This document shows positions 1-57,001 of a stretch of DNA of 64,000 nt, in pieces. Under the pieces are notes generated by a model. That model was not told where the DNA came from, did not search any database, and worked only from the letters and a program-made list of their open reading frames with translations. Every line of letters begins with the position of its first letter. Position 1 is the first letter of the stretch. The position numbers and the translations under genes are program-made. This DNA comes from Nocardioides gilvus (GTDB lineage Bacteria > Actinomycetota > Actinomycetes > Propionibacteriales > Nocardioidaceae), in NCBI RefSeq assembly GCF_003194605.1, contig NZ_QHKY01000004.1, positions 310,001-374,000 of the forward strand, read 5' to 3'.

Positions 1-481
1 CGGACGTCTTGCCCGCCTTGAAAGCGGTGACCGCTGCCGTGACCCCGAAGAGGGTCGCACCCACCGCGGCTGCGATCAGGAGCGGCCACGTGTCCCCCAT
101 CCAGAGGGCGCCGATGGCCGCAGCGAGCGGGAAGGCGACGAACGGCCAGCCGAGGACCAACTGTCCTTTGACGGCGCTGAGCAGTGCCCACGCCATGGCG
201 GCGAACCCGAAGGCGATGCACGGGAAGAGCAACTGCTCCAGCAAGGGGTACTCCCAGCATCCCGTGGCCACGAGGAGCTTCCAGGTCGCCTTGCCGAATC
301 CACCCACCCCGATGAGCAGTGCGCCCAACGCAGCGACCCCGAATGCCTTCGGAACACGCTCACGAACCATCAACGCCAGGACGACGAGTGCGCCGGTCGC
401 CAGGATGCAGGGGACGAAGTCCTCCACCGCCAGGGCCACCCCGTACTCGGTGCACACGTCGACGCCGCGAGTTGCGAGCAT
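1..481 (-). CDS. Integral membrane protein, unknown function (3' end beyond window)
   Basis: The reading frame starts at the ATG at 481, which overlaps the TGA of the upstream SDR gene (TGATG), and runs open to the left edge, so 160 residues are visible and the C terminus is missing. The visible part is almost entirely hydrophobic, with about five candidate membrane segments, starting with a stretch around residues 19-40 and continuing through Gly/Ala/Leu-rich helices. I recognise no family. The coupling to the upstream genes makes it the last visible member of the operon that carries the RCCR-like and Rieske genes, so it may move a substrate or product across the membrane or anchor the pathway there. 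That role is inferred from position only. Confidence 0.75.
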   Translation of the reverse strand, partial: MLATRGVDVCTEYGVALAVEDFVPCILATGALVVLALMVRERVPKAFGVAALGALLIGVGGFGKATWKLLVATGCWEYPLLEQLLFPCIAFGFAAMAWALLSAVKGQLVLGWPFVAFPLAAAIGALWMGDTWPLLIAAAVGATLFGVTAAVTAFKAGKTS

Positions 482-1284
482 CAGGTGTCCTGGAACAGAT
501 CGCGCTTGGTGAAGCCGGCCGTCAGGAACCGCTTCGCAGCCTTGGGCCCGGTCAACCACGCGACCCGCGCGCCGGACTTCGAGGCCTTGAGGACGCCGTC
601 GGCCAGGAAGGGTGTCACCGTCTCGACCTTGTCGCCGAGGATGTTGAAGATCTTCTTCGCCTTGGCGAACCCCTCGGGGTCGTTCCCGTAGTCACCCACC
701 AACAGGTCGGTCACCACGATGCCTGGCGAGAGGAAACCGATCTTGACGTCGGTGCCCTTGGTCTCCTTGACCAGCGCCTCGGTGAGGTAGTTGACCGCCC
801 GCTTCGACGCGCCGTACACGGCGATGCCGGGCTGGATCTGGCCGTTCGACCCTAGGCCCTCCATGTTCCAGATCCATCCGCCGCCGGGCTGTGACGTCAT
901 GCCTTGACCGGCGACTGCGCAACCGTTGACGACGCCGTTCACATTGATCGAGAAGACTTCGTCGAACTTCACCATGTCGGTCGCGAGCAGCGGCACCCGT
1001 TCGGTGGAGATGCCGGCATTGTTGACCCACACGTCCACACGGCCGAAGGTCGCCATGGCGTGGTCCCACAGTGCCTGGACCGAAGCGCGATCACTGACGT
1101 CGGTGGGCAGTCCAGTGGCCCGATCGCCGGCACGCAACTGGGTCAGGGCAGCCTCCACCGACGCTGCAGAACGACCACAGATGACGACGCGTGCGCCTCT
1201 GGCGAGGAACTCCCGGGCCAGGCCGAGACCGATCCCGCGGGTGCCTCCGGTGACGACGACGACCCGACCACGTGCGGCGCTCAT
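481..1284 (-). CDS. Short-chain dehydrogenase/reductase, NYC1/NOL (chlorophyll b reductase)-like
   Basis: This 267-residue classical SDR has the NAD(P) motif TGGTRGIG at 12-19, NNAG at 88-91 and the catalytic YGASK at 157-161. The segment before the Tyr reads NMEGLGSNG (140-148), where most SDRs have an N-x-S-S motif; after it comes SPGIVVTDLL from 186. From memory these match the NMDGAGSxG...YGxxK and SPGMVTTDLL segments of plant NYC1/NOL chlorophyll b reductases, so I place it nearest that group. NYC1/NOL reduce the C7 formyl group of chlorophyll b. The ATG at 1284 overlaps the previous stop (ATGA), and a longer start at 1317 would run into that gene. Substrate is unproven; the SDR assignment is certain, the subgroup likely. 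Confidence 0.85.
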   Translation of the reverse strand: MSAARGRVVVVTGGTRGIGLGLAREFLARGARVVICGRSAASVEAALTQLRAGDRATGLPTDVSDRASVQALWDHAMATFGRVDVWVNNAGISTERVPLLATDMVKFDEVFSINVNGVVNGCAVAGQGMTSQPGGGWIWNMEGLGSNGQIQPGIAVYGASKRAVNYLTEALVKETKGTDVKIGFLSPGIVVTDLLVGDYGNDPEGFAKAKKIFNILGDKVETVTPFLADGVLKASKSGARVAWLTGPKAAKRFLTAGFTKRDLFQDT

Positions 1285-2252
1285 CGTGCCTCCCACTGCA
1301 ACGAGCCGTGCACCCAATGAGTGGTCCGCTCGCCCGACATGAGTTGCCAGACGATGGCGAGCTCCCGGGTCTCGGGGTCGATGAGGACCTCGCGGCCGCG
1401 GATCTTCTCCACTCCCCGTCCGTCGGCGCCCATGAGGTGCTGGACGGTGAAGAGCGCACGGCCGTACGACGTGGCGTTGCCGAACACCTCGGGGCCCTCG
1501 AACATGGTGCGGGCGCCGTCCCGGTAGCGGTCAAAGCTGTACGACCGGTCCAGGTCACCGGTCCAGGTGATGGTGTGACGAGCGGAGCGCAGGGACGTCG
1601 GGTCGTGCTCGATCCTCACCCGGACCTCGCCGGTCGCGCTGGTCTGGTCGGCGTTGTCCACGAAGAGGGTCCCGGTCCAAACGCCCTTCTCCTTGGTGGG
1701 GAGCACCTGGGGCCGGGAGCCACGCTCCTGCTCGAGGGCGCGCCACTCGTCGACGAACTGCTGCGTCTCCGGGTTGGTCTCACGGTCGGTGGTCCGCTTG
1801 TAGATGCCGTTGAACACGGCGCAGACGGCCCAGCCGTCGTGCAGCACCGAGGAGTACACCTGGGTCTCGCCGTCGGCGAGCACCTGGTTCCACGTGCGAA
1901 GGTCGGCCTGCCAACCGGGTGAGTAGTAGTTGGCCTCGACGAAGAAGCCGTACGGCTGTCCGGTCCCGTAGAAGTCGGGTCCCGTGTAGACCCTGTTCTC
2001 GTCGGAGTCTACGACGCCGAAGTCGAACTGGGCCCCGAGCTCAAACCGGTTGCGCAGCGGACCGGAGCCCGAAAGCTTGGAGTCCATCCAGTAGCGGGAG
2101 CCCTCCGGGGTCACCTCGCTGGCACGAGCGATGTACTCGAACCCGACGTGGTTGCCCTGGGCGTCGAAGAGCGCAGGAATCCCGTGCCACTCCCCCTCGA
2201 TGCGCTTCTGCCACTCGGAGGTCTCGACCTCCGGGTCCCTCGTCGCGCTCAT
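1281..2252 (-). CDS. Two-part beta-rich (calycin-like) protein, unknown function
   Basis: A 323-residue soluble protein without signal peptide. It appears to have two similar halves, each opening with a W-x-G segment (EWHGIP near residue 20, GVWTGTL near 205) followed by alternating hydrophobic strands rich in aromatic residues and the phrase ITWTGDLD. Such a pattern suggests lipocalin/calycin-type barrels, although I cannot name a family. The short protein encoded at 23885-24352 has the same style of opening (GVWAGTY), so the region may hold more than one relative. Start at ATG 2252 forms an ATGA overlap with the upstream RCCR-like gene, showing tight coupling. A bilin- or chlorin-binding role would fit both fold and neighbours but is only an inference. 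Confidence 0.75.
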   Translation of the reverse strand: MSATRDPEVETSEWQKRIEGEWHGIPALFDAQGNHVGFEYIARASEVTPEGSRYWMDSKLSGSGPLRNRFELGAQFDFGVVDSDENRVYTGPDFYGTGQPYGFFVEANYYSPGWQADLRTWNQVLADGETQVYSSVLHDGWAVCAVFNGIYKRTTDRETNPETQQFVDEWRALEQERGSRPQVLPTKEKGVWTGTLFVDNADQTSATGEVRVRIEHDPTSLRSARHTITWTGDLDRSYSFDRYRDGARTMFEGPEVFGNATSYGRALFTVQHLMGADGRGVEKIRGREVLIDPETRELAIVWQLMSGERTTHWVHGSLQWEAR

Positions 2253-2989
2253 GCAGGCGTGTCGTTGGTGACGAGTTGCATGCGGATCGACTCGGCCACC
2301 GGTTCGGTGAGCAGGCGCGAGATCTGCGCCCACACCTTGTCGACCTCGGGGCTGAAGAGGAGACCACGGTTCTTGGCGTCGCGTGCAGCCAGGTCGGTGT
2401 CCGCCACGTCGGCGGTGACCTCGGCCGGCACGTCGCCCTCGACGAGGGAGAACCAGTGGTCGAGGTACGCCTTCACGGGCGCGTCGAGCTCGGCGAACGC
2501 CTCCTCGGTCGAGCGCGCTGCCAGCATCCAGGAGGACATGACCGTGAGCTGGCGCGGATCGAGCGCAGCCTTGGTGTAGCCGGGGTTGGCCTGGACGCTC
2601 TCGTAGGCCTCGGTCAGCGGGGTGTGGGCCCAGTCGTTGTAGACCATGTGGGTCCCGGCGTCGACGCGCTGGATCAGGTCGAGGTGGAAGGCCATGTGGC
2701 CACCGGCCTGGACGGAGTCCAGCGTGAAGTGCGGGACGACGCCGCCGTCGGGCATGAAGGCGAAGACCATGTGGCTGTCCATCTGGATCTGCGGCACCAC
2801 GATGCCCACGTAGACGACCTTGGCGATCTTGTCACCGCTGAAGATCCGCACGGAACCGACCGGGTCCGGACCCATCACGGAGCCGAGCACCTGGAACGGG
2901 CCGCCGTCGGCACCGGCGACCTCGGTCAGTCGACCGCGCTCGATGATCGCGTCGAGGGTGGAGATGCAAAGCTTCTCGGGCAGGCTCAC
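2249..2989 (-). CDS. RCCR / ferredoxin-dependent bilin reductase-like protein, paralogue 2
   Basis: 246 residues, cytoplasmic. It aligns by eye with the RCCR-like protein encoded at 5262-6077: the central strand VPHFTLD (85-91) corresponds to VPHFGMA there, and both have a helical C-terminal third that starts with a Tyr/Trp/His-rich segment. Ferredoxin-dependent bilin reductases and plant RCCR have a P-x-F-x-x-(D/E) strand with a catalytic acidic residue; here that residue is Asp91. The family passes electrons from ferredoxin to a bound open-chain tetrapyrrole without flavin or metal. No ferredoxin gene is visible in the window. Identity is less obvious than for the first paralogue; the shared operon strengthens it. 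It lies 40 bases after the Rieske gene. Confidence 0.65.
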   Translation of the reverse strand: MSLPEKLCISTLDAIIERGRLTEVAGADGGPFQVLGSVMGPDPVGSVRIFSGDKIAKVVYVGIVVPQIQMDSHMVFAFMPDGGVVPHFTLDSVQAGGHMAFHLDLIQRVDAGTHMVYNDWAHTPLTEAYESVQANPGYTKAALDPRQLTVMSSWMLAARSTEEAFAELDAPVKAYLDHWFSLVEGDVPAEVTADVADTDLAARDAKNRGLLFSPEVDKVWAQISRLLTEPVAESIRMQLVTNDTPA

Positions 2990-3029: not shown

Positions 3030-4250
3030 TCAGTTCTTGGTCGCGGCCTCGGCCACGGTCTCCGCGTCGATCGCCTCGCGCTCGGAGGTGGTCATCACCT
3101 GGTGGGCACGGCCGTCCAGGATCTGGCGGCTGCGCACCTCCTTGAAGTTCCAGGCGCTGGCCAGTTCGGGCACTCCCTTGCGTGCCGGCGACGGGATGAC
3201 CCGGGCCTCCACGCGGGCGGGACCCTCACCGACGATCGTGTTGCCCTCGACGCTCCAGCCCATGTCGATGAGCTCCTGGCGACGGCGACGGTAGAGCGTC
3301 GCGTTGTAGTCGCTCTTGACGTGCAGCTCTGCCGAGAGGTCGAAGGGCAGCAGCTCGGGGCGTACGGCGTCGACGATGGCCTGGTCCTCGTAGAGCACCT
3401 TGAAGACGCGACGACGGGCATCCGCGTCGGCCCAGGCGCCCTTAAAGAAGCCGCGCAGGGCGATGAACTTGACGAGCGTGGTGTCCTCGTCGATCGGGAT
3501 GTTGACGTCGTAGATCTTCAACGGTCCCATCGGCGTCTCGATCTCGAGCAGGATCATGTTCGGCAGCCACCACGTGTTGGACACCTTGACCGGCGGACGG
3601 TTGGCCAGGTCCTGCTTGTTGGGGTTGATGAAACCCCACATGCCCTTGGACTTCGGCGGGTGGAGCTCGACGGAGATCTTGCAGCTCCACTCGGTCTCCT
3701 CGACCGCGTAGTCGGGGACCTCCGGCTTCTCCGGGTTGCCGAAGACGCCGCCGTGGACGAAGGGGGTGTGGGCGACGTCGACACCGTTCTCGAGGATGCG
3801 CTCGTAGTTCGACTTCCAGAGGAAGGAGCCCCGCACCGCCCGGTAGTTGACGGTGTCGTTGACCAGCGACCAGTCAGGGATCGGAGGACGCTCCTCCTCG
3901 GGGAGGTCGCCCATGTAGACCCACACGAAGCCGTACTGCTCGAGCGTCGGGTAGGAGTCGACGCGAGCCTTGCGCGGAATGCCCTTGTCGGGGTGCGCGG
4001 GGATGCGGCTGACGGCACCGTCGGGTTCGTACTCCCAGCCGTGGTACGGGCACACGACGCAGTCGCCCTTGACCTCACCGTCGGAGAGAGCAGCACCGCG
4101 GTGGACGCACAGGTCGGACATCGCGACCACGGAGTTGTCACTGCCCTTGCGGTACAGCACCAACTGCTGCCCGAGCACCTTCACCTTCATGGGCTTGCCT
4201 GCGACGACATCGTCGGTGAACTCGACGGCGTACCAGAAGTTCTTGAACAT
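3030..4250 (-). CDS. Rieske non-haem iron oxygenase, alpha subunit (PAO/VanA-like)
   Basis: 406 residues. The N-terminal Rieske domain has CVHRG (Cys48, His50) and CPYHGW (Cys67, His70), the [2Fe-2S] ligands. The catalytic domain has the mononuclear iron motif N-G-V-D-V-A-H with a following His (Asp158, His161, His166). Members of this group are monooxygenases or demethylases fed by a ferredoxin or reductase; plant pheophorbide a oxygenase (PAO) opens the chlorin ring with the same chemistry. No transmembrane segment or C-terminal CxxC as in plant PAO is visible. The gene follows the hydrolase by 10 bases, with a strong AGGAGG ribosome site before ATG 4250. Placement between two RCCR-like genes is the argument for a tetrapyrrole substrate; an aromatic substrate cannot be excluded. 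Confidence 0.88.
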   Translation of the reverse strand: MFKNFWYAVEFTDDVVAGKPMKVKVLGQQLVLYRKGSDNSVVAMSDLCVHRGAALSDGEVKGDCVVCPYHGWEYEPDGAVSRIPAHPDKGIPRKARVDSYPTLEQYGFVWVYMGDLPEEERPPIPDWSLVNDTVNYRAVRGSFLWKSNYERILENGVDVAHTPFVHGGVFGNPEKPEVPDYAVEETEWSCKISVELHPPKSKGMWGFINPNKQDLANRPPVKVSNTWWLPNMILLEIETPMGPLKIYDVNIPIDEDTTLVKFIALRGFFKGAWADADARRRVFKVLYEDQAIVDAVRPELLPFDLSAELHVKSDYNATLYRRRRQELIDMGWSVEGNTIVGEGPARVEARVIPSPARKGVPELASAWNFKEVRSRQILDGRAHQVMTTSEREAIDAETVAEAATKN

Positions 4251-4260
4251 TGCTGTCCTC

Positions 4261-5256
4261 CTAGCGTCGCCGGAGCTCGGCGAAGTGAAGTGGGGGTGTG
4301 GAGAAATAGTGGTCCAGATCTGCCTGCGCCGCAGGGAGCTGGAGTACGTGCGTACCGAGAAAGGCAGTCAGCAGACCGATGAAGGTCTGCCTCAGCTCGT
4401 CCTGGTCCGCTGTGAGGGGTGTTTCGAGGAATCCGCGGGCGGAGGACTGGTCCTCCGGTGTGGAGACGAGCAGGTGGCCGGCCCCCGAGATCACCGCGAG
4501 CCATGCCTCCTTGCTGTGGGACAGGGCCTCGCTCCACGTACGCAGTACCGGATCGTGCGTCGTGTCGTCGCCGGACTGCCCGTAACGGACGGCGCTGGCC
4601 CGGACGACCCCGTCCTGCGCACCACTCACCAGCAGGACCGGCACCGTGGCCGGTGACTCCACGATGGTGTCGGGGGCAAAACCCAGCTGGGTCGAGGCCA
4701 TGAGGTGCGACCCGTAGGTGACGACCGCGCTCAACTCGGGGAACCAGTCGGAGCTGGCGGACTGCAGCGCCACCGTGCCGCCGGCGGAGTGGCCGAGCAG
4801 GACGACTCGGGTCAGGTCGAGCATCCCGGCGAGGGCTCCCGACCCGTTCAGCTGGTGGAGCCTGTCCAGCAGAGGCCGGAGGGCGGGCGTGGTCGGGGCC
4901 GATCCGTAGGCCTCAGGAGTGGCGACGCCGACGTCCACCCCCGGGGTGAGCCCGACCTGCCCGGGGAACAATTCACCCACCCAGTCATAGGTCACCGCCA
5001 CGAACCCGGACCGCACGAGTTCCACGGCCAACCAGGTGTATCCGGCGGAGGCGACGTTGACGCCCCCCAGCACCACGACGACCGGGTGGGGCGCACGGGT
5101 CCGGTCCACCTCGAGCATCCCGCTCATCCGTTGCGCGTCGGTGGACGCCGGCAGGGCTGGGTGTCGCACCGTGAGGTGGACCGTGTCGTGGGGCGCAGGC
5201 GCGCCGGGCACGCGTACCGCATCGCGGTACGCACGCACGACCACCTGGTTGTCCAT
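4261..5256 (-). CDS. Alpha/beta hydrolase, dienelactone/chlorophyllase-like
   Basis: 331 residues. The nucleophile elbow is intact, GHSAG at 155-159 with Ser157; Asp215 in the segment SGAQDG and His261 in SGAGHL complete a plausible triad. The core reads VVVVLGGVN, then a segment typical of dienelactone-hydrolase-type and chlorophyllase-type esterases (no separate lid domain obvious). In the context of an RCCR/Rieske operon it could remove phytol or the C13-2 methyl ester, as chlorophyllase, pheophytinase or MES16 do in plants; that is inference. ATG 5256 lies five bases after the stop of the RCCR-like gene. A longer frame upstream overlaps that gene and is less likely. Confidence 0.82.
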   Translation of the reverse strand: MDNQVVVRAYRDAVRVPGAPAPHDTVHLTVRHPALPASTDAQRMSGMLEVDRTRAPHPVVVVLGGVNVASAGYTWLAVELVRSGFVAVTYDWVGELFPGQVGLTPGVDVGVATPEAYGSAPTTPALRPLLDRLHQLNGSGALAGMLDLTRVVLLGHSAGGTVALQSASSDWFPELSAVVTYGSHLMASTQLGFAPDTIVESPATVPVLLVSGAQDGVVRASAVRYGQSGDDTTHDPVLRTWSEALSHSKEAWLAVISGAGHLLVSTPEDQSSARGFLETPLTADQDELRQTFIGLLTAFLGTHVLQLPAAQADLDHYFSTPPLHFAELRRR

Positions 5257-5261
5257 CGTGA

Positions 5262-6077
5262 TCAGGCCTCGTGGGGTCGGGGCAGCACGCGGTCGCCACC
5301 CCACAGTGCACTGACGAGTTGCGCGGTGCGCTCCTCGCCGAAGTAGCGCACGGCGACGACGTTGGCGGGGTCGAGCTCGGCGATGTTGCGACGCGTGTTG
5401 AGGTCGGCCTCGGCCAGCTCGGCACGCTTCTCGACCGGGACCTCCTCGGCCTCCTCGACCCACTGCAGCCAGCGGTCCATGTGATCGTTGGCGGTCTTGC
5501 GGACGAGGTCGAAGTACTCCTGCGACGGCTCGGCCATGATCGACCACGCCGTGGGCGAGTAGGTGGCGCGCACGAAGGCGTCACGCGAGACGAACTCGTC
5601 GATGCCCGGTGTGCCCTTGTGGAGCCGCTGCCACTCGTCGTTGAAGGGCTCGTAGTACTTCTGGTAGTACTCGCGGTCGGTCGAGATCACCTTGCGGGGC
5701 ACGGAGTCCATGAACATCCAGGCCTGCGGGAAGGCGCCGAGCGCCATGCCGAAGTGCGGGACGTCGATGTGGGGACCGAGCCAGATGGTGAGGTGGACGT
5801 TGACGAAGCCGAGCGTCTGGTTCTGCATGTGCGAGTGGATCAACCAGTCGACGTCCTTGCCCGAGTAGGCGCGGATCTGCCCGGTGGGGCCCCCGTCGAC
5901 TTCCGAGGCGAAGGCCTCGAGCTCTTCGGTGGAGGGATCGCGGAGCACGTCGAGACGGGCCATGGCCTTGTCCTTCAGCCCTTCGATGATGTCGAGCCAC
6001 TCCGCGAAGATCGCGGAGACATCGGTGACCGGTGCCTCGTCCAAGAAGTCCTGGACGAACTTCATCTGCTCACTCAT
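5262..6077 (-). CDS. Red chlorophyll catabolite reductase (RCCR)-like protein, paralogue 1
   Basis: 271 residues, no transit peptide or signal. Several blocks match my recollection of Arabidopsis RCCR in the same order: YYQKYYE (137-143), AFVRATYSPTAW (167-178, plant LFVRSAFSPTAS), TRRNIAELD (228-236) and FGEE (246-249). The central strand is VPHFGMA (106-112), so the acidic residue found there in plant RCCR and bilin reductases is Ala112 in this copy. RCCR uses reduced ferredoxin to reduce the C20/C1 double bond of red chlorophyll catabolite. This is the first gene of the operon; GAGGA lies six bases before ATG 6077, and an ATAYGAT element sits 45 bases upstream. Homology looks good; activity on chlorophyll catabolites is inference. 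Confidence 0.78.
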   Translation of the reverse strand: MSEQMKFVQDFLDEAPVTDVSAIFAEWLDIIEGLKDKAMARLDVLRDPSTEELEAFASEVDGGPTGQIRAYSGKDVDWLIHSHMQNQTLGFVNVHLTIWLGPHIDVPHFGMALGAFPQAWMFMDSVPRKVISTDREYYQKYYEPFNDEWQRLHKGTPGIDEFVSRDAFVRATYSPTAWSIMAEPSQEYFDLVRKTANDHMDRWLQWVEEAEEVPVEKRAELAEADLNTRRNIAELDPANVVAVRYFGEERTAQLVSALWGGDRVLPRPHEA

Positions 6078-6188: not shown

Positions 6189-7631
6189 TCAGGTGCCCGG
6201 GTAGGAAGCCGCGCCGGAGCCCGCACCGCCCTCGCGGAACGCCGCAGGAGCATGGATGACACAGGGCTGGACGTACTCCAACAGGCCCTCGTCCCCGTAC
6301 TCTCGGCCCCAGCCGGAGCGCTTCACGCCACCGAAGGGCGCGCGCAGCGCCATACCGGTGCGGTTGTGGGTGTTGATGAAGGTGAACCCGGCGTCGAGCC
6401 GTGCTGCCACGTCGAAGGCGCGTTCCTCATCGGGTGACCACACCGAGGCGCCCAGCCCCAGGTCGCCCGCGTTGGCGCGCCCCACCACCTCGTCGACGGT
6501 GTCGAAGGCCAGCACAGGAAGGATCGGGCCGAACTGCTCCTCGGCCACGATGCCGTCCGCGTCGTCGGCACCCAACACCAGTGACGGACGTACGAAGTAG
6601 CCACGCGTCAGCTCGGTGGTGTCGTCGAGGGTGCCGATGGGCAGCACCTCCGCGCCGCCGGCGCGGACCTGGTCAGCCAAGTGGTCGAGTCGCTGCCTGG
6701 AGGCTGCCGAGACGACCGGCCCCATGCTGTTGCCCGGATGGAGCGGGTCGCCCATCCGGAGGACCCGATCGGCGGCTGCGCGGATCTGCGCGACCACCTC
6801 GTCGAAGCGCGACCGGTGGACGTACAGACGCTTGATCGCCATGCAGACCTGGCCGCTGGTCGCGAACGCAGCCATCACCAGTCGCTCGGCATCGGCATCC
6901 GTCAGCACCACGTCGTCGAGCAGGATCGCGGCGTCGTTGCCGCCGAGCTCCAGGACACTGGGCGTCAGCGCCCTGCCGGCCATCGACGCGATCGCGCGGC
7001 CGGCCGCATCACCACCCGTGAAGGCAACCCGGGCCACCGCCGGGTGCTGGACGAGCGCCGAGGCCGTCTCCACATCACCCTGCACCACCTGGACCAGACC
7101 GGCAGGCAGAGAGTCCGCCACCTTGCCCAGGAAGGTCTGCACCCCGAAGGGCGCCAACGGGGACGGCTTCACCACGATCGCGTTGCCCGCCACGAGGGCG
7201 GGTGCGACCTTGAGCAGCGACAGGATGATCGGGGCATTCCACGGGGTCACTGCCCCTACCACTCCGAAGGGGCGGTGGCGCACGCTGAGGCGCCCACGGG
7301 CGTCGTCGCTGGTGGGCTGGGCCAGCAGCTCAGCGCCTCGATCGGCGTAGAAGCGCATCACCGCGACCGCGAATCCGGCCTCGCCGCGCGCATCGCCCAG
7401 CACCTTGCCGGTCTCCCGGGCCACCAGTTCAGCGATGTCGTCGAGGTACGGCTCCACAGCGGCCGCGGCGGTCCGTACGGCCGTGGTCCTCTCGGCCACC
7501 GAACGCGTGGCCCACAGTGCCTGGGCCTCGGCAGCGGCATTGACCTGCTGCCCCACCCGGTCAGGCGTGGTGGTCTCGATGACCCCGACGAGCTCGTCGA
7601 TGCGGGCGGGGTTCTCCCGTTCGATCCGCAT
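6189..7631 (-). CDS. Aldehyde dehydrogenase (NAD(P)+-dependent)
   Basis: 480 residues, full length for the ALDH superfamily. The catalytic Cys263 is in the segment SGQVCMA, the general base Glu228 in LELGGND, and the segment PWNAP at 130-134 with Lys155 marks the cofactor site. It oxidises an aldehyde to a carboxylate; the substrate is unknown. It lies 57 bases downstream of the next ALDH gene on the same strand, and its ribosome site is weak, so it may be translated less. Its stop is 111 bases from the start of the RCCR-like gene, where the next transcription unit begins. Confidence 0.9.
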   Translation of the reverse strand: MRIERENPARIDELVGVIETTTPDRVGQQVNAAAEAQALWATRSVAERTTAVRTAAAAVEPYLDDIAELVARETGKVLGDARGEAGFAVAVMRFYADRGAELLAQPTSDDARGRLSVRHRPFGVVGAVTPWNAPIILSLLKVAPALVAGNAIVVKPSPLAPFGVQTFLGKVADSLPAGLVQVVQGDVETASALVQHPAVARVAFTGGDAAGRAIASMAGRALTPSVLELGGNDAAILLDDVVLTDADAERLVMAAFATSGQVCMAIKRLYVHRSRFDEVVAQIRAAADRVLRMGDPLHPGNSMGPVVSAASRQRLDHLADQVRAGGAEVLPIGTLDDTTELTRGYFVRPSLVLGADDADGIVAEEQFGPILPVLAFDTVDEVVGRANAGDLGLGASVWSPDEERAFDVAARLDAGFTFINTHNRTGMALRAPFGGVKRSGWGREYGDEGLLEYVQPCVIHAPAAFREGGAGSGAASYPGT

Positions 7632-7688: not shown

Positions 7689-9191
7689 TCAGCGTCCGTG
7701 CAGGGCGAAACCGCCCTCGACGCCGACGACCCTGGCACCGGTGAAGATCCTGATGGTCTCGACGGTGCCCTCCTCCCCCATGCCGGACAGACCCCAGGCG
7801 GGCCGCGGCGTCATCAGGTGGAGGCTCATGATGGTCGAGCCGTTGACCTTGACCTCACCGGCGCGGACCCGGCGGGCCACTGCGAGGGCTGCTTCGGTGT
7901 CGGTGCCGACGACGTAACCCTCGAGGCCGAACGGCGTGCCGTTGGCCAGCTCGACGGCCTGCTCGACGTCGGAGTAGGTGTGCACCGTGGCCACCGGTCC
8001 GAACAGTTCGTGGATCGCTGCCTCGCTGGGCACGTCCCGGACCAGGGTGGGCGCCAGGAAGTTGCCCGGACCCGTCGGGAGCTCGGTCGTGCTGAAGGCA
8101 CGACCCCCTGCGGCGACCCGCTCCTCGATCCCTTCGTGGAGGGAGGCCAGATGTCCGGCGTGGACGATGGGCCCGAATTCCGTGGCGGCGTCCAGTGGGT
8201 CGCCCACCCGCAGGTCGGACAGTCGCGCACCGATCCTGGTGATCACCTCGTCGGCGATGTGCTCCGGGAGCACCAGGCGGCCCAGGGCTCGGCACCACTG
8301 GCCGTTGAGGGTGGTGAGGAGATCCGCGGCGCTGCGAGCTGCCACGTCGAGATCGGCGTCCGGCATGATCACGAGCGGGTTGTTGCCCCCCAGCTCGAGC
8401 TGCAGCGCGGTGAAGTTGGTGGCACATGCGGCGGCAATGGCCCGACCGGCCTGGAGGCCACCGGTGAAGGAAACCGCCCTGATGCGCGGGTCGTTCACGA
8501 GCGCGCCTCCGACCTTCGCGCCTCCCTGCAGGAGCTGGAAGGTGCCAGCGGGCGCACCCTGCTCAGTGAGGACGCGGTCGATGACCATGGCCAGCGCAGT
8601 GGTGCCCCACGGGGCGTACTCGCTGGGCTTGAGGATCGACGGGGCGCCTGCCGCCAGCGAGCTGGCGATCTTGTGCGCGGCCATCGGGGCCGGGGCGTTC
8701 CACGGGACCAGGCTCAGCGACGGGCCCAGCGGCAGTCGGTGGACCTCGACGTTGTTGCCGTGCTCGCCGACCGTGTTCTCCAGGAGCACGCCGTTGCGCA
8801 GCATGCCGGCAGCCAGGTGGAAGGCACCCGGCACGATCACGCCGACGATGGACGTCTGGGAGATCGGGACCCCCGTGGCAACCGACTCCAGGGCGGCCAG
8901 GTGGGGCACCTCGGCCTCCAGCGCTGCGCCGATGGCCTCGAGGATCTCGGCACGGCGCTCGACCGGGACACTGCTCCAGACTCCGGTGTGGTGCACCCGG
9001 TCCGCAGCAGCCAGGGCTGCTTCGACCGCTTCGTCGTCGCTGGCTGCGGCGGCGCCCAGGGCCTCGCCGGTGTACGGGTCGCAGAGGTCGACCTGGAGCG
9101 TGTCGGTCGGCATCGACCAGACCCCGTCGACGAGTTGCTCGACGGCAGGCCGCCGGAGGTCACCACGCGAGAAGGCGTCGGACATCCTCAC
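7689..9191 (-). CDS. Aldehyde dehydrogenase (NAD(P)+-dependent)
   Basis: 500 residues when read from GTG 9191, which overlaps the preceding stop (GTGA); ATG 9185 is the alternative. Glu266 lies in LELGGN and the nucleophile Cys300 in NGQWCRAL, a variant of the usual GQ-x-C motif with Trp before Cys. PWNAP is at 163-167 and Lys188 in the segment LKPSE. The protein resembles benzaldehyde/semialdehyde-type ALDHs only in general terms. Being coupled to the flavoprotein oxygenase gene, it would act on an aldehyde released by that oxygenation. Substrate unknown. Confidence 0.9.
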   Translation of the reverse strand: MRMSDAFSRGDLRRPAVEQLVDGVWSMPTDTLQVDLCDPYTGEALGAAAASDDEAVEAALAAADRVHHTGVWSSVPVERRAEILEAIGAALEAEVPHLAALESVATGVPISQTSIVGVIVPGAFHLAAGMLRNGVLLENTVGEHGNNVEVHRLPLGPSLSLVPWNAPAPMAAHKIASSLAAGAPSILKPSEYAPWGTTALAMVIDRVLTEQGAPAGTFQLLQGGAKVGGALVNDPRIRAVSFTGGLQAGRAIAAACATNFTALQLELGGNNPLVIMPDADLDVAARSAADLLTTLNGQWCRALGRLVLPEHIADEVITRIGARLSDLRVGDPLDAATEFGPIVHAGHLASLHEGIEERVAAGGRAFSTTELPTGPGNFLAPTLVRDVPSEAAIHELFGPVATVHTYSDVEQAVELANGTPFGLEGYVVGTDTEAALAVARRVRAGEVKVNGSTIMSLHLMTPRPAWGLSGMGEEGTVETIRIFTGARVVGVEGGFALHGR

Positions 9192-10483
9192 GCCCCCGGC
9201 TTCTTGAAGCTGTCAGTGGTGGTGAGACCGGCGTAGCCCTCGTCCTCGACGATCATCTTGGCGAGGTCGAGCTTGCCACGCTCGGCCGGGAACGCCTGGA
9301 CCAGACCCATGGCGGTGTCGCGGACGGCGCGCCCGATCTCGTTGCTCATCAGGGCACCGGAGGTGCCACACATCTTGAAGGCGATCATGGCGACCTCGTG
9401 CGCGTGCTCGGTGATGGCACCCTTCGCCAGCTTCCAGCTCTGCACGACCTCCTTCTTCGGCAGGATCGGCGGGTCGGAGGCCTCCAGGTCGATCTGGCGA
9501 CGCAACCACAGGTGGGCCTCGGCCAGGTGGGTCTCGGCTTCCCCGATCATCACCTGGTGCATCGGGGAAGAGGCGATCGGCTTGCCGGTGTCGGCGAACT
9601 TCGCGTTCATCACCCGGTTCAGGGCGAAGCCCCAGACGCCCTGGGCGATGCCGGCGTAGATCGACGCGATGGCGATCTGGTTGCCGACCCAGGAGCCGCG
9701 CGACATCGTGGTGGCCCTGGAGAAACCACCGGGGACGGCGAGCGCCAACTCGTCGGGCACGAACGCGTTCTCCATGACCAGACCGTTGTTGTCCGAGGCA
9801 CGCATCCCCAGACCGACCCACGGCGAGCGCGAGCGGGCGCCGACGGTGTCTCGGGGCACCAGGAAGAGGGTGAGGGCATCGAGCCCCTCGACGTCCTCAC
9901 GACGGGCCGTGACGAGGTAGTAGTCAGCCGAGCCGGAGAGGCAACCGAAGGACTTCTCACCGTTGAGGAACCACCCGCCGTCGGTCCGGGACGCGGTGGT
10001 GCGGATCAGCACGTTGGCGTTGGAGGCCTTCACCGCCTCGGAGGCGAAGTTGCCGATCGCCTTCTTCTCGGTGCCCATCAGGTGGAGCACCTTCTCGGCG
10101 AAGGCACGCACTTCGGGGGCCTCGTCGTCGCTGTAGAGGCCGGCGTCGAGCGCGGCGAGCGGCAGCATGCCTCGCGAGGACGAGGAACAGTGGAAGAAGA
10201 AGGCCAGGGCGGTCGAACCACACACCGTGCCGAGGGCGTACGTGGTGGCCGCGAGGTCACGCAGGCCACCGCCGAGGCCACCGAACTCCTCGGGCACAAC
10301 CAGACCCAGCAGACCAGCGTCGCCGAGCAGCTTGATGTGGCCTTCGGGAAGCGCCGCGTCGATGTCCGCCGACTCGGCTGCAGCGGCGATCGCCGGCAGC
10401 ACGGACTCGACCCGGCGAGCGCGCTCGCGCTCCGCCTCGGTCAGGTCGGGGAGGATGTTCTCGGCGGTGAGCTTTTCGGTCAT
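9188..10483 (-). CDS. Acyl-CoA-dehydrogenase-fold flavoprotein, probable two-component monooxygenase
   Basis: 431 residues with the acyl-CoA dehydrogenase fold: an N-terminal helical domain ending in the motif VVPEEFGGLGG, a central beta domain with GWFLNGEKSF, and a C-terminal helical domain. ACAD-fold enzymes fall into dehydrogenases and group D flavin monooxygenases (HsaA, HpaB and DszC types). Because the upstream coupled gene encodes a flavin reductase (ATGA overlap at 10480), the oxygenase role is preferred. It would use reduced flavin to hydroxylate or cleave a ring or heteroatom. A dehydrogenase role remains possible. AGGAG eight bases before ATG 10483 supports the start. Confidence 0.82.
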   Translation of the reverse strand: MTEKLTAENILPDLTEAERERARRVESVLPAIAAAAESADIDAALPEGHIKLLGDAGLLGLVVPEEFGGLGGGLRDLAATTYALGTVCGSTALAFFFHCSSSSRGMLPLAALDAGLYSDDEAPEVRAFAEKVLHLMGTEKKAIGNFASEAVKASNANVLIRTTASRTDGGWFLNGEKSFGCLSGSADYYLVTARREDVEGLDALTLFLVPRDTVGARSRSPWVGLGMRASDNNGLVMENAFVPDELALAVPGGFSRATTMSRGSWVGNQIAIASIYAGIAQGVWGFALNRVMNAKFADTGKPIASSPMHQVMIGEAETHLAEAHLWLRRQIDLEASDPPILPKKEVVQSWKLAKGAITEHAHEVAMIAFKMCGTSGALMSNEIGRAVRDTAMGLVQAFPAERGKLDLAKMIVEDEGYAGLTTTDSFKKPGA

Positions 10484-11754
10484 CCTGTTGCTCCTACGGT
10501 GTTTCGGGCGCCCAGCGCCGTGCGGTCGGTGTGGTGGATGGTGCCCAGTCGCACGGCGAGGGCACTGATGGCTTCGCCGTCGACTGCACAGGCGACGTCG
10601 AGGGTGCCGAGCAGGCGGATCAGGTCTTCGACGGCGACCGAATGGCTCAGCTGTCCCAGGGCGGTGTCGAAGTCACGCACTCCACTCTTGAGAGCGGTCA
10701 GGACCTTGACCAACGCCAGGCGGTCACCGCTGTCGAGCCGCATGCGCAGTGCGGTGGGGCGCGCCAGGGGCACTGCTTCCTGCAGCAGGTCGCGCACCTC
10801 CAGCGCGGTTGCCGCGCCTGCTGTGTCAGGGAGACAGATCTCCTTCACGCCAGCGGCGCTGAGCTGCTCGACGGACTCCAGCACGGCCTCGCGGAGTGCG
10901 GGGTCGAAAGCCATGGCCAGTGAGACCGACACTCGGTCGGCGATCCCGTCCAGACTGGACAGGGCCTGCTGGAGGCTGGCTGGCACGCCGGGATCAGCGG
11001 TCAGCTCGATCACGCCGGCCCCGCACTCCAGCGCCTTCTGGGCCTGGAGACGGTCGCCGACCAGCACGCTCGTCATGGTGCGGTCGCTGGGCCAGGGAAC
11101 GTCCGACAGCACGACGTCGTCCTCGGCGGCACAGGTCAGGTCGGCCACGCGCAGTCGCACTCCGGCGGCCGTGGTCACCGCGACGGCGTCGGTCAACTGC
11201 GGGGCGAGCCTCGAGTTGCGCAGCGCGTCGACGAGACCGGTGTCGCTGATCGTCGCCACGTCGGGCAGCACATCGGCGAACTGGCCCCAGCCTCGCGAAT
11301 GGAACAGAAGCGGAGCAGAACGTCGCGCGTTGTGCGCCGCCACGACCTCTCCGACGAAGATGGTGTGGTCGCCTCCGTCGTACTCGTGCACCACGCGACA
11401 GTCGACCCAACCGAGGGCGGAGTCGAGCAGCGACGCACCGGTCTCGGCGACGGTCCACGACTCGCCCTCGAACCGGTCCTCGACGCCCTTCACCATGCCG
11501 GCGAAACGACGCGCGACCTCCATGTTGTCCTTGGCGAGCACGTTGACCCCGAAGATCCCGGAGTCGGAGATGAGCTTGTGGGTGTAGAGCGTCTTCACCA
11601 GACAGACCGACACCAGGGGCGGGTCAAGACTCACGCTGGAGAACGAACTGGCCGTCATGCCCTTGCGCACGCCGTCGGCGTCGACCGTGGTCACGATCGT
11701 GACCCCACTGGGCCACTGCGCCATCACGTCCCGAAACGTAGCGGGATCCACCAT
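10480..11754 (-). CDS. Flavin reductase fused to an HMG-CoA-lyase-like barrel
   Basis: 424 residues in two domains. Residues 1 to about 165 form a flavin reductase domain (segments MAQWPSGVTIVTT, GMTASSFSSVSLDPPL, HTIFVGEV), the FMN/FAD reductase partner of two-component monooxygenases. Residues from about 180 to 410 look like an HMG-CoA-lyase/DRE-TIM barrel: VSVSLAMAF, AGVKEICLPDTAG and GVRDFDTALGQL appear in the usual order. The lyase domain lacks the N-terminal R-D-G metal/catalytic motif, the H-x-H pair and the Cys loop, so it is probably inactive or regulatory. AGGAGG lies seven bases before ATG 11754; a longer frame from 11814 lacks such a site. It drives an operon continuing to 6189. 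Confidence 0.85.
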   Translation of the reverse strand: MVDPATFRDVMAQWPSGVTIVTTVDADGVRKGMTASSFSSVSLDPPLVSVCLVKTLYTHKLISDSGIFGVNVLAKDNMEVARRFAGMVKGVEDRFEGESWTVAETGASLLDSALGWVDCRVVHEYDGGDHTIFVGEVVAAHNARRSAPLLFHSRGWGQFADVLPDVATISDTGLVDALRNSRLAPQLTDAVAVTTAAGVRLRVADLTCAAEDDVVLSDVPWPSDRTMTSVLVGDRLQAQKALECGAGVIELTADPGVPASLQQALSSLDGIADRVSVSLAMAFDPALREAVLESVEQLSAAGVKEICLPDTAGAATALEVRDLLQEAVPLARPTALRMRLDSGDRLALVKVLTALKSGVRDFDTALGQLSHSVAVEDLIRLLGTLDVACAVDGEAISALAVRLGTIHHTDRTALGARNTVGATG

Positions 11755-11924: not shown

Positions 11925-12614
11925 ATGACCGCTCGCACGGACCCCCGAGTGCGTTCCATCAGCCACCGTTCCCTCGTGGACCGGGTGACCGACGAGCTGC
12001 ACCGCGCGATCCTCAACGGTGACATCGCGCCCGGATCGACCGTGTCGATCGTGGAACTCTGCAAGGAGTTCGACGTGAGCCACATCCCCGTGCGCGAGGC
12101 GCTGCGGCGACTCGAGAGTGAGGGCGTGGTGAGCCTGCGCCCCGGACGCTCCGCCGTCGTCGCGTCGTTGAGCGCCGAGGACCTGAGCAAGATCTACCAC
12201 CTGCGCAAGCTCATCGAGGGCGACCTGGTCGTCAAGGCCACTCCGCACCTGGACGCCGCGGCACTCGAGCGCGCCCAGGTGGCGATGCTCGAGTACGCCA
12301 CCATCGAGCGCGAGGCTTCCCGGCTCGCTGCCGCGCACCATGCCTTCCACGCGGCCTTCCTCGACGACGCCCTGGGCACCGCGGACCGTCGCATCCTCGA
12401 GATCCTCTGGACCTCCTCCGACCGCTACCTCCACCTGCTGCTCGGCGACCTGGACAAAGGACCCGAGAAGACCCAGGCCCGGATCGACGAGCACCAGGAG
12501 CTTCTCGACCTGGCCAAGGCTGGAAAGACCGAGCAACTGCGTGACGCCTGGGTGGCTCACCTGGACAGCTCGGAGCAGGCCCTGCTCGAGGCACTCGCAG
12601 CACGCGAGAGCTGA
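11925..12614 (+). CDS. GntR-family transcriptional regulator (FadR/FCD subfamily)
   Basis: 229 residues. The N-terminal winged helix (about 15-80) has the motif VSHIPVREALRRLESEGVV, diagnostic of GntR; the C-terminal helical FCD domain includes His-containing motifs (HHAFHAAF, DEHQELL) that in this family bind a metal and an organic-acid ligand. It is divergent from the flavin reductase operon. The ATAYGAT elements on both sides of this intergenic region, and at three other promoters in the left half, make it the likely regulator of the RCCR/Rieske operon and neighbours. A ligand such as a small carboxylate or pathway intermediate is expected. Regulon membership is inference from sequence motifs. 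Confidence 0.9.
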   Translation: MTARTDPRVRSISHRSLVDRVTDELHRAILNGDIAPGSTVSIVELCKEFDVSHIPVREALRRLESEGVVSLRPGRSAVVASLSAEDLSKIYHLRKLIEGDLVVKATPHLDAAALERAQVAMLEYATIEREASRLAAAHHAFHAAFLDDALGTADRRILEILWTSSDRYLHLLLGDLDKGPEKTQARIDEHQELLDLAKAGKTEQLRDAWVAHLDSSEQALLEALAARES

Positions 12615-12703: not shown

Positions 12704-14368
12704 TCAGCGCCTGAGGAGCGAGTCCGTCAACTGCCACGGGCGACCGTCGACCAGGTCAGTTCCCTTGCTGACGAAGCGGTTGACCGCGCACTCGGGCCGC
12801 AGTACGGCCGTGGTGATCGGCCCCTCGGCGAGCACCGGGTCCGGGCGACTGATCACTCCGTCGAAGGGTCGCTCCCAACCCGATCCCCACAGGGTGAAGT
12901 TGTGCGAAAGCGGCACGAGCATCCCGCCCGGAAGTTCGCGTCCGGCGCGACCGGCCACAACCAGGTTGACCCTGTTCTCGGCGGCACGCTCCAGAAGCAT
13001 CGGGTCGAGGTCGTGCGCCGTCTCCACGGAGAAGGGGACGGCGACCACGTCGGCATCCCGGAAGGCCACCAGGCGGAAGGTCTCCGGGTAGAGGGCGTCG
13101 TCACCCACCACCACCGCCAGGCGACCCCACGGGGTCTCGAGCAGGGTGACCTCGTCACCGAGGCTCTTCACCCACTGCGCATGACGTGCACTGTGATGGA
13201 GTTGCACCTGGCGCAGCAGCACACCGCGCTGGCCGATGACCAGGCCGACGTGTCGGTCGCCGTCGACGACAGAGGTCACCACGAGCGAGTCGGACCCCGC
13301 GAGCAGACCCGTGATCGCCTCGACGCCGAGGCCAGCGGCGGGCTCGGTGGTCCCGTCTCCCCCCGCATGGGCAGCCAGCTCCGGGAGCACCACCAACTCA
13401 GGTCCTCCTGCCAGGGCCGCGGCCAGCAGTGCGGCGAGATCATCGCCCTCGGAGGGGGTCACAGCCACGGCGGTGATCGCCGGCGCTCCGGCCGGAGCCC
13501 GACGCCCGACCGGCGCAGCCCCGATCGAGCCGTACAGCTCGGGACGCCTGGAGGTGAAGATGTCGGTGCCGTCGGCGCGCCGCTTGTCCGTGGCCAGGGT
13601 GACGTCGATGTCAGCGACCACGACCGCCTCGCCTGTCTTCGGCCCCATGGCGACCACCGTGCCGTCCGGCGCCACGATCTGCGCCTCGCCGACACCGTGC
13701 AGGCGTTCGACCGGCACGCCGACCCGCGAGGCGACGGCCTCGATGCTGTGTGCCGGGACCAGCGGGCCCACCTTGTTGGCGGCCACGATCCACACCTTGT
13801 TCTCCACGGCACGCACCGGCACGTGCAGGGTGGCCTCGTCCAGGGCGAACGAGTTGATGCTGTTGAGCAGCACTGTCGCGCCGTCCAGGGCCAGCATGCG
13901 TGGGGTCTCGTTGATGACGCCGTCCATGCAGGAGTAGAGACCGAAGGTGGCGAGCTCGGTCTCCACCACCGGGACGCGCTCGACGGCAGGATCGAGGTGG
14001 TCGCGCTCGCTGCCCATCAGGACCTGCTTGTCACTGACCGACAGGATCTGGCCCTCAGGCGAGAACAGGACGTTGGATCCGCTCACGCGCCCGTCGGTGC
14101 GCTGCAGCGTCACGTTGACCATCAGATGGAGGGAGTGCCGGGCCGCCCGCTCGCCCAACGCGGCGAGGAACGGGCCGTCCAGCTTCAGCGCCTTCGTCCT
14201 GGCGTGCTCACGATCGGAGTACCACGAGACGTGGTTGCTGAACTCCGGCAGCACCACCACCTCGGCGCCCTGGGCGGCCGCCTCGTCGGTCATCCGCAGG
14301 CACGTGGCCAGGTTGGCCTCGACGTCCTCGGTCACGGCGAACTGCAGGGCAGCAACGCGAAGCGTCAC
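12704..14368 (-). CDS. Tandem nitrilase-superfamily protein, second domain lacks the catalytic Cys
   Basis: 554 residues, about twice a normal nitrilase/amidase, with two C-N hydrolase domains (about 1-290 and 295-554). Domain 1 has the triad Glu42 (VVLPEF), Lys114 (SVSDKQ) and Cys147 (LYSCMDG). Domain 2 retains Glu330 (VVLPEL), but the segment that should carry Cys reads VGDDALYPE (421-429), so the nucleophile is missing. Domain 1 should hydrolyse an amide or nitrile; domain 2 is likely structural. GTG 14368 is chosen because GAGGAGG precedes it closely; the frame extends further upstream without a ribosome site. It is divergent from the MFS gene and shares an ATAYGAT element with it. A half-amide from an imide ring would be a fitting substrate (inference). 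Confidence 0.85.
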   Translation of the reverse strand: MTLRVAALQFAVTEDVEANLATCLRMTDEAAAQGAEVVVLPEFSNHVSWYSDREHARTKALKLDGPFLAALGERAARHSLHLMVNVTLQRTDGRVSGSNVLFSPEGQILSVSDKQVLMGSERDHLDPAVERVPVVETELATFGLYSCMDGVINETPRMLALDGATVLLNSINSFALDEATLHVPVRAVENKVWIVAANKVGPLVPAHSIEAVASRVGVPVERLHGVGEAQIVAPDGTVVAMGPKTGEAVVVADIDVTLATDKRRADGTDIFTSRRPELYGSIGAAPVGRRAPAGAPAITAVAVTPSEGDDLAALLAAALAGGPELVVLPELAAHAGGDGTTEPAAGLGVEAITGLLAGSDSLVVTSVVDGDRHVGLVIGQRGVLLRQVQLHHSARHAQWVKSLGDEVTLLETPWGRLAVVVGDDALYPETFRLVAFRDADVVAVPFSVETAHDLDPMLLERAAENRVNLVVAGRAGRELPGGMLVPLSHNFTLWGSGWERPFDGVISRPDPVLAEGPITTAVLRPECAVNRFVSKGTDLVDGRPWQLTDSLLRR

Positions 14369-14388
14369 GGTTCCTCCTCTATATCCTG

Positions 14389-14395
14389 ATACGAT
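14389..14395. promoter_or_regulatory. ATAYGAT element between nitrilase and MFS genes
   Basis: ATACGAT in CTATATCCTGATACGAT (14380-14395, reverse strand ATCGTATCAGGATATAG). This is nearly the same 16-18 base block as upstream of the CoA-transferase/HMGL pair, the best-conserved pair in the set. Confidence 0.5.
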
Positions 14396-14451
14396 TTCGC
14401 AATCTTGCCATAGCCCCGCCCTCCATTCTCCTGACGCCGGAAAGAGGAACC

Positions 14452-23884: not shown

Positions 23885-24352
23885 TCAGACCGGGTTCTCG
23901 ACCGGGTCCCAGCGCACGGCCTCGGCTCCGGGCACGCGCCGCTCCTCGATGATGGTGAGCTTGCTCAGCTCGCCGTCGGTGAAGTGCTGCCAGACCCGGG
24001 TGCGGTAGTCACCGTCCGGGCGGGTCACCTCGATGATCCGCTCGTTCGGGCGTTCCTGCCACCCGAACGAGAAGATCACCGCCTCGTCGCCCACACGACT
24101 GGTGCGGCCCCACATGTTGCCGTTGTGAAAAGTGACCTCGTCACCTTCCACGGTGGCGTGGTAGTAGTGCTCGTACGGCTCCTGGCCGGGACGGAGGTAG
24201 GTGACGCGTTCGGTCCAGGTGGTGCCCTCCATCCGCCCCTCCTGACGGCTGTCGAACTTCTCGATCAGCGCGCCCGAGGGCTCGAGCACGGTGTAGGTGC
24301 CTGCCCAGACTCCGGCCACCTTCTCGCGCAGGATGTCGTTGATGGTCGTCAT
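23885..24352 (-). CDS. Small beta-rich (calycin-like) protein, unknown function
   Basis: 155 residues. It begins with a GVWAGTYTVLEPSG motif, followed by a set of strands of equal spacing with many Tyr, Trp and His residues (EHYYHATVEG, NGNMWGRTS). Predicted to be a single lipocalin-like barrel of the DUF3598/nitrobindin or CpcS kind. The W-x-G opening matches the two-part protein at 1281-2252. Such folds often bind tetrapyrroles, but no ligand residues can be proved here. It sits in an operon with the nitrilase-like and SDR genes, with ATG at 24352. Confidence 0.65.
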   Translation of the reverse strand: MTTINDILREKVAGVWAGTYTVLEPSGALIEKFDSRQEGRMEGTTWTERVTYLRPGQEPYEHYYHATVEGDEVTFHNGNMWGRTSRVGDEAVIFSFGWQERPNERIIEVTRPDGDYRTRVWQHFTDGELSKLTIIEERRVPGAEAVRWDPVENPV

Positions 24353-56126: not shown

Positions 56127-56169
56127 CGCCCCACCCCACCAGACTCTGCACAGACGAGAACGAGGACCG

Positions 56170-57000: not shown

Positions 57001-57001
57001 G

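Follow-up and report, generated by a model that had tools for sequence, protein, structure and literature searches.

Plants break down chlorophyll with enzymes that include NYC1/NOL chlorophyll b reductases and RCC reductase (RCCR), and the locus described here raises the question of what a NYC1/NOL-like short-chain dehydrogenase (SDR) does when it is encoded beside an RCCR homologue in the actinomycete Nocardioides gilvus. The SDR gene lies near the start of the window, the whole stretch of 64,000 nucleotides that was analysed. The original prediction, made from the letters of the DNA, read this gene as an SDR with a chlorophyll b reductase signature in an RCCR operon. Its open reading frame proved exact, on the minus strand, which the prediction had not stated; the plus strand of 481–1284 contains stops. 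The features of the locus are collected in Table 1.

Table 1. Genes of the SDR locus and related genes in the same genome; positions are those of the window unless prefixed L004.
Feature	Position	Strand	Remarks
Small membrane-type protein	1..484	-	Named by eye; runs off window start
SDR, NOL/NYC1-like short-chain dehydrogenase (P0001)	481..1284	-	267 aa, ATG start
U1, predicted double lipocalin-like barrel (BFA1/DUF3598-like fold)	1281..2252	-	323 aa
U2, second protein with predicted RCCR/bilin-reductase fold	2249..2989	-	246 aa
Rieske oxygenase	3030..4250	-	406 aa; Rieske and C-terminal VanA_C, without PaO domain (Pfam)
Alpha/beta hydrolase	4261..5265	-	GHSAGG; start uncertain
RCC reductase homologue	5262..6077	-	271 aa; PF06405 3.2e-13, 49.9 bits (cut-off 24.9)
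Aldehyde dehydrogenase 1	6189..7631	-	PF00171
Aldehyde dehydrogenase 2	7689..9191	-	PF00171
Acyl-CoA-dehydrogenase-like/flavin monooxygenase-like protein	9188..10483	-	Pfam Acyl-CoA_dh domains
Flavin reductase with C-terminal HMGL-like part	10480..11754	-	PF01613 1.2e-44
GntR-type regulator, divergent	11925..12614	+	Named by eye; start uncertain
Double carbon-nitrogen hydrolase (nitrilase superfamily)	12704..14509	-	PF00795, two stretches
AMDase-like gene	L004:18040-18792		Next past the membrane-type gene
NOL-like paralogue of the SDR	L004:2400-3203	+	39% identity
Second RCCR homologue	L004:6114-6941	+	About 3 kb past the paralogue

The encoded protein scores 149.6 bits against the Pfam family adh_short (PF00106), as a classical SDR. 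It carries the cofactor motif TGGTRGIG, an NNAG motif and the conserved active-site residues Tyr157 and Lys161 (Y157GASK161); a TGxxxGxG cofactor motif and YxxxK are named for ZjNOL in the accessible text of PMC9181577. Both predicted segments, NMEGLGSNG ahead of YGASK and SPGIVVTDLL after it, are present in the translation. The usual site of the catalytic serine, assumed to lie three residues past the conserved Asn, falls on Gly143, which is flanked by Glu142 and Ser146. The sequence GRS after strand beta-2 presumably marks a protein that uses NADP(H). The third position of the signature is Glu, compared with Asp in the plant NOL and NYC1 sequences used here, which are provisional, and a NOL-type C-terminal block aligns with those sequences.

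The pattern N-x-[E/D/L]-G-x-G-S together with Y-x-x-x-K, which was composed only after the family had been inspected, occurs in 26 of the 30 rows of a NOL-like clade and in none of 42 other SDR rows. Likeness to NOL continues across the C-terminal third of the protein, and many other SDR matches end near residue 195. In near full-length alignments, the SDR is 37% identical to NOL and 35% identical to NYC1, both plant sequences being provisional versions rather than database records, so that single letters may be wrong; viral contigs searched for a plant-like NOL to replace them yielded none. BLAST comparison with the provisional NOL gave 144 bits (36% over 257 residues), against 125 bits for the best non-family SDR. 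The corresponding score with the provisional NYC1 was 132 bits (33%), against 137 and 135 bits for the non-family SDRs of loci L009 and L059. Because non-family SDRs outscore the window SDR with NYC1, pairwise scores are indecisive and the placement is left to the tree.

Within the N. gilvus genome, profile A1, whose rows include both proteins, gave 436 bits for a paralogue and 423.5 bits for the window SDR, followed by 132.8 bits for the next match (8 of 36 candidates scored). With the window SDR as the only query, the paralogue (200 bits) came ahead of the next SDR (95 bits). The reading of the protein as an ordinary SDR was rejected as sufficient on this A1 gap and on the split of the family in the tree.

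The SDR tree comprised 72 rows: the window SDR, its paralogue, two plant rows, 44 of 80 relative loci and 24 of the 29 loci L006–L034, from which L007 and L008 (truncated), L021 and L025 (near copies of L020) and L032 (doubtful C-terminus) were left out. Thirty rows form one clade with support of 100/99, made up of NOL, NYC1, a Heimdallarchaeota protein (L060) and 27 bacterial rows that include the window SDR; the other 42 SDRs fall outside. Within this clade, L060 groups with the plant rows in one branch (100/97), whose sister branch (98/91) consists of the bacterial rows, with the window SDR among them. The position of L060, on which the provisional plant sequences do not depend, speaks for their soundness. 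Membership of the window SDR in the plant branch itself was rejected, on a p-AU of 0.0125 against nesting and on the support for the sister branch. The predicted better match to NYC1/NOL than to ordinary SDRs is thus borne out by the motif and by the grouping with the plant proteins, but not by the NYC1 pairwise scores, and the protein stands beside the plant branch rather than inside it. With provisional plant rows, the tree shows the SDR to be homologous to NYC1/NOL as part of a bacterial sister branch. Judged by sequence, the protein counts as a sister of chlorophyll b reductase on the bacterial side, and not as a proven chlorophyll b reductase.

By tree path, the rows closest to the window SDR are those of Paractinoplanes durhamensis (L036; 59% identity over 248 columns), Nocardia pseudobrasiliensis (L041), an Ardenticatenales bin (L039), Pseudohalioglobus sediminis (L035) and an Acidimicrobiaceae bin (L037). 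The window SDR belongs to a sub-clade of ten rows (97/82), which was delimited after the tree and the RCCR matches were known. The wider bacterial branch includes Firmicutes, several of them from animal guts, a Chlorobiaceae bin, a Bacteroidales bin and a cyanobacterium. Fourteen family loci with NOL-like SDRs (L044–L056 and L058) come mostly from Firmicutes-type bins, several from animal guts, and whole-genome search found an RCCR-like match in none of these genomes. The Heimdallarchaeota relative (L060:2677-3549, plus strand) is the top non-plant scorer with both NOL and NYC1; its gene comes right after genes recognised by eye as larE-, larC- and larB-like (nickel pincer cofactor).

The SDR gene is the sixth of a run on the minus strand that reads RCCR homologue, hydrolase, Rieske oxygenase, U2, U1 and SDR. 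Its start overlaps the stop of U1 (ATGA), and its stop overlaps the start of the next gene (TGATG). Downstream follow the membrane-type gene and then the AMDase-like gene. Upstream of the RCCR homologue, on the same strand, are two aldehyde dehydrogenases, an acyl-CoA-dehydrogenase-like protein and a flavin reductase. The acyl-CoA-dehydrogenase-like protein has NCBIfam matches, HsaA among them, that all fall far under their cut-offs. The HMGL-like part of the flavin reductase gene matches PF00682 at 1.2e-5, also under the cut-off (25.3 of 29 bits), and the joining of the two parts in 10480–11754 (minus strand) looks like an unusual fusion.

The RCCR homologue shares with plant RCCR the family PF06405 and a profile match over approximately 230 residues: profile A4 reached solved plant RCCR at 1.9e-21 and the best bilin reductase at 3.6e-9. 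The column of plant Asp291 is also kept, as D236, which is invariant in six rows. In contrast with plant RCCR, the column of plant Glu154 holds Ala112 in the window protein, and a second RCCR-fold protein, U2, occurs in the same run; the roles and numbering of the two plant residues are as presumed here. U2 has no match in Pfam. Its AF2 model (pLDDT 89) placed RCCR (2zxk/3agb) at the top of a Foldseek search with TMq of 0.70–0.75, followed by PebA and PcyA, and profile A4 picks up U2 at 7e-8. U2 is predicted to have the RCCR fold, closest to RCCR among solved structures.

U1 is also without a Pfam match. A Foldseek search with its AF2 model (pLDDT 80) gave 5yvf at 2.4e-8 and 2o62 at 2.5e-7 with TM of about 0.5, and the folds nearest to the predicted structure are BFA1 and a Nostoc DUF3598 protein; U1 orthologues lie at 43–51%. 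Profiles of U1 and U2 gave no useful match against the sequences of solved structures. Elsewhere in the window, at 23885–24352 (minus strand), a protein with a single DUF3598_N domain (7.4e-8) is a possible small relative of U1. For the Rieske oxygenase, whose alignment was built without genomes G252 and G294, the best NCBIfam model was 4-methylsterol monooxygenase, far under its cut-off (92.7 of 600 bits). The hydrolase weakly resembles PET hydrolases and cutinases, and Chlorophyllase was the best Pfam model for its Nocardia orthologue, one of four orthologues scanned, at 24.5 bits and below the cut-off of 26.

The run recurs in other genomes. At four loci fetched by way of the SDR (L035, L036, L037 and L041), U1, U2, the Rieske oxygenase and RCCR are all encoded no more than 10 kb from the SDR gene. 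The gene order of L036 and L041 is that of the window, the L036 genes for RCCR, hydrolase and Rieske oxygenase being placed from BLAST matches since the automatic gene caller chose wrong-strand frames. The hydrolase and SDR genes of L037 are separate from RCCR-Rieske-U2-U1, and the cluster genes of L035 are spread over both strands. In L036 and L041 the gene after the SDR is AMDase-like, except that a membrane-type gene separates the two in L036, as in N. gilvus; the AMDase-like gene is matched in three of six cluster loci. The double carbon-nitrogen hydrolase is matched in all six (L037 partially, at the locus edge) and in none of 14 control loci. The flanks of L039, L040, L044, L055 and L058 were too short for gene context to be judged.

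Two further clusters, G252 and G294, were found from RCCR and have RCCR, Rieske, U2 and U1 in a row. Neither genome contains a NOL-like SDR at E 1e-40, and because of these two RCCR clusters without it, the SDR is regarded as accessory and not essential to the core. The G252 cluster adjoins CoA transferase, cyclase and MmgE/PrpD genes, as are also found in the window at 54930–58504 (plus strand; 54–63% identity). Comparison of these sequences shows the run with RCCR homologues to be real and recurrent. The predicted RCCR operon accordingly holds up in its neighbours, with an RCC reductase homologue beside the SDR, a probable RCCR fold in U2 and genes that recur in four named genomes.

Association between the SDR and RCCR extends beyond gene neighbourhood. 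Whole-genome search found RCCR-like genes in seven of 25 genomes with a NOL-family locus. Six matches are strong (L035, L036, L037, L038, L040 and L041) and one, in the Oscillatoria genome of L057, is weak (1e-7); the other 18 genomes gave no RCCR-like match. For L038 and L040, the RCCR-like genes are on contigs other than that of the SDR. Background searches of the phylum of N. gilvus found RCCR in 3 of 396 genomes, one of them N. gilvus itself (leaving 2/395, the two being G252 and G294), and of the phylum of L035 in 1 of 349, which is the L035 genome itself (leaving 0/348). The difference between 6/25 NOL-family genomes and 2/743 background genomes gives a Fisher p of 1.7e-8, to be read with the differing sensitivity of the queries (SDR genomes searched with A4, background genomes with PF06405), incomplete bins and non-independent genomes. 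The rows of A4 include the own RCCRs of four of the six positive genomes, whereas L038 and L040 are not in A4 and still match.

Within the family, RCCR occurs in six of the nine other rows of the window sub-clade and in none of 16 elsewhere (Fisher p 4.7e-4). No RCCR was found in L039, the third nearest row by tree path, or in L042; both are draft bins in which absence is not certain. With these two genomes lacking a match and L057 having a weak one, the link between sub-clade and RCCR is strong but not strict. A NOL-like signature alone does not imply chlorophyll, because 18 of the 25 genomes have no RCCR-like match and one has only a weak one. Scattered RCCR homologues, 40–44% identical to the L004 copy, also occur in contigs C40 and C23 of G399 (L125 and L126) and in G401; the stretches fetched around them had no match to the Rieske oxygenase, U1 or U2. 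The NOL-family profile has two matches in G399 and three in G401. The SDR of L038, from the gammaproteobacterial bin that holds the G399 RCCR homologues, is the top bacterial scorer with the provisional NOL.

The N. gilvus genome holds a second set of these genes. The paralogue lies 17 kb before the window SDR and is followed by the second RCCR homologue, so that one chromosomal region encodes two NOL-like SDRs along with three proteins of the RCCR family or fold. Genes recognised by eye as those of a LIV-type ABC transporter lie near the paralogue and the second RCCR homologue. The island seems to begin upstream of the paralogue, because the genes of L003 look by eye like core housekeeping genes.

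Partners known from the plant pathway were sought in the same genome. The HCAR-type family (FrhB_FdhB_C) had no matches, with a control that was positive in 3 of 14 genomes. The PaO family (PF08417) was absent, with a control positive in 3 of 14 and over the cut-off in one. Staygreen was not found, in a search that had no working positive control. Absence of the HCAR-type family disfavours a plant-like conversion of chlorophyll b to a, but no HCAR-type enzyme would be needed if the formyl group were reduced in a single step ahead of ring opening.

The window run and the plant PAO/phyllobilin pathway have the same classes of enzyme, with an esterase-type hydrolase, a Rieske oxygenase, RCCR and NOL all represented. 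They differ in that the Rieske oxygenase lacks the PaO domain, the HCAR type is absent and Staygreen was not found. Likewise, the SDR resembles plant NYC1/NOL in its SDR motifs, in NxxGxGS before the active-site Tyr, in the C-terminal block and in belonging to one supported clade, but it sits on a bacterial sister branch, has Glu for Asp, has no N-terminal extension, is encoded in a bacterial operon and has no HCAR-family partner. As described in the accessible text of PMC10151467, the pre-PcyA clusters of heterotrophs also place enzymes of the bilin-reductase superfamily in conserved clusters of non-photosynthetic bacteria. Heme oxygenase, V4R, globin and Fe-S proteins are typical of those clusters, whereas the window has a Rieske oxygenase, a double lipocalin, a NOL-like SDR, a hydrolase and an RCCR-like reductase. 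RCCRs and related sequences serve as the outgroup in that study.

Co-occurrence of both plant chlorophyll-breakdown families, twice, in company with a Rieske enzyme and a hydrolase of the esterase type makes chlorin or bilin catabolism the simplest reading. The run may well be an operon for breaking down tetrapyrroles of the chlorin type, or linear ones derived from chlorins, with the SDR taking part, and a tetrapyrrole is a likely substrate of the operon, a view taken with moderate confidence. Within that catabolism, the most likely task of the SDR is to reduce a formyl or keto substituent on a chlorin or on a bilin derived from one. Sequence comparison shows the homology, the run of genes, its presence in several genomes and the genomic link between sub-clade and RCCR; from these we infer co-transcription, substrate, direction and order of the steps. 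In the proposed order, the hydrolase would trim an ester, and the SDR, probably NADPH-dependent, would reduce a formyl or keto substituent at the periphery. The Rieske oxygenase would then open or oxidise the ring, the two RCCR-fold proteins would reduce the opened chain, and the aldehyde dehydrogenases, monooxygenase, nitrilase and AMDase-like enzymes would process the fragments. More tentatively, the window may lie in a bacterial chlorophyll-catabolism island. In such an island, relatives of NOL and RCCR, a Rieske ring opener and a chlorophyllase-like hydrolase would dismantle chlorins, and carbon-nitrogen hydrolases, AMDase-like enzymes, CoA transferases and lyases would mineralise the pyrrole or maleimide fragments.

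Degradation of a compound other than a tetrapyrrole, such as a terpenoid, a steroid-like molecule or an N-heterocycle, is rather unlikely but has several features of the locus on its side. The RCCR-fold proteins would then be repurposed, and the SDR would be an ordinary carbonyl reductase or alcohol dehydrogenase. The island is rich in generic catabolic genes (aldehyde dehydrogenases, CoA transferase, HMGL-like, nitrilase and amidohydrolase) and contains ABC transporters, one permease being identified by Pfam and the others by eye. The Rieske oxygenase has VanA_C and not PaO, with a sterol monooxygenase as its best, far sub-threshold model, and plant RCCR Glu154 is replaced. Against these points stand the two NOL-like SDRs of the region and its three proteins of the RCCR family or fold, whose families are tetrapyrrole-linked in plants, and the genomic association of NOL-like SDRs with RCCR-like genes.

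A special case of the tetrapyrrole reading is that the SDR shares the actual activity of NOL, reduction of the 7-formyl group of chlorophyll(ide) b or pheophorbide b. Consistent with this activity are the match to the provisional NOL (36% identical across 257 residues) and the common NxxGxGS and C-terminal blocks. It is nevertheless improbable: the SDR is sister to the plant branch and not inside it, it has Glu for the Asp of the provisional plant sequences, the HCAR-type enzyme for the next step is absent, and RCCR-Rieske clusters exist without the SDR. An equally doubtful role is late and oxidative, with the SDR acting as an alcohol dehydrogenase on a side chain carried by a pyrrole or maleimide fragment after its release and feeding the two aldehyde dehydrogenases. 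These are encoded upstream on the same strand, and the AMDase-like gene follows the SDR; yet ALDH1-like genes occur in only three of the four SDR-linked loci, in one of them at only 30% identity and with no match in L037, and the GRS sequence presumably points to NADP(H). The preferred function remains reduction of a formyl or keto substituent on a chlorin or on the bilin derived from it.

Published descriptions of the plant NYC1/NOL family include PMC3541173 and PMC9181577, as far as their accessible text goes. In the accessible part of PMC2716323, Nostoc and Anabaena are reported to have RCCR-like genes, and PaO-like bacterial Rieske proteins to be without the PaO motif. A bacterial Mg-dechelatase homologue has also been studied, in a report whose accessible text regards it as unknown whether such homologues are physiologically relevant (PMC8531759). 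Among the matches listed in the literature search, which covered titles and abstract openings and subscription literature thinly, none described a bacterial NOL-RCCR-Rieske cluster.

Plant chlorophyll breakdown is well mapped, whereas a bacterial gene set for dismantling the pigment was not found in the literature searched. The gene set described here hints at a bacterial route that dismantles chlorophyll-type pigments. With a Rieske oxygenase beside homologues for two steps of the plant pathway, the run makes bacterial chlorophyll breakdown testable in Paractinoplanes durhamensis and Pseudohalioglobus sediminis. The question of where NYC1/NOL came from is touched as well: in the tree, their closest relative outside plants is archaeal, and RCCR-linked genes are among their bacterial relatives. 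If the chlorophyll-catabolism island is real, kin of the plant reductases would reside in the catabolic operons of heterotrophs, and not in phototrophs alone.
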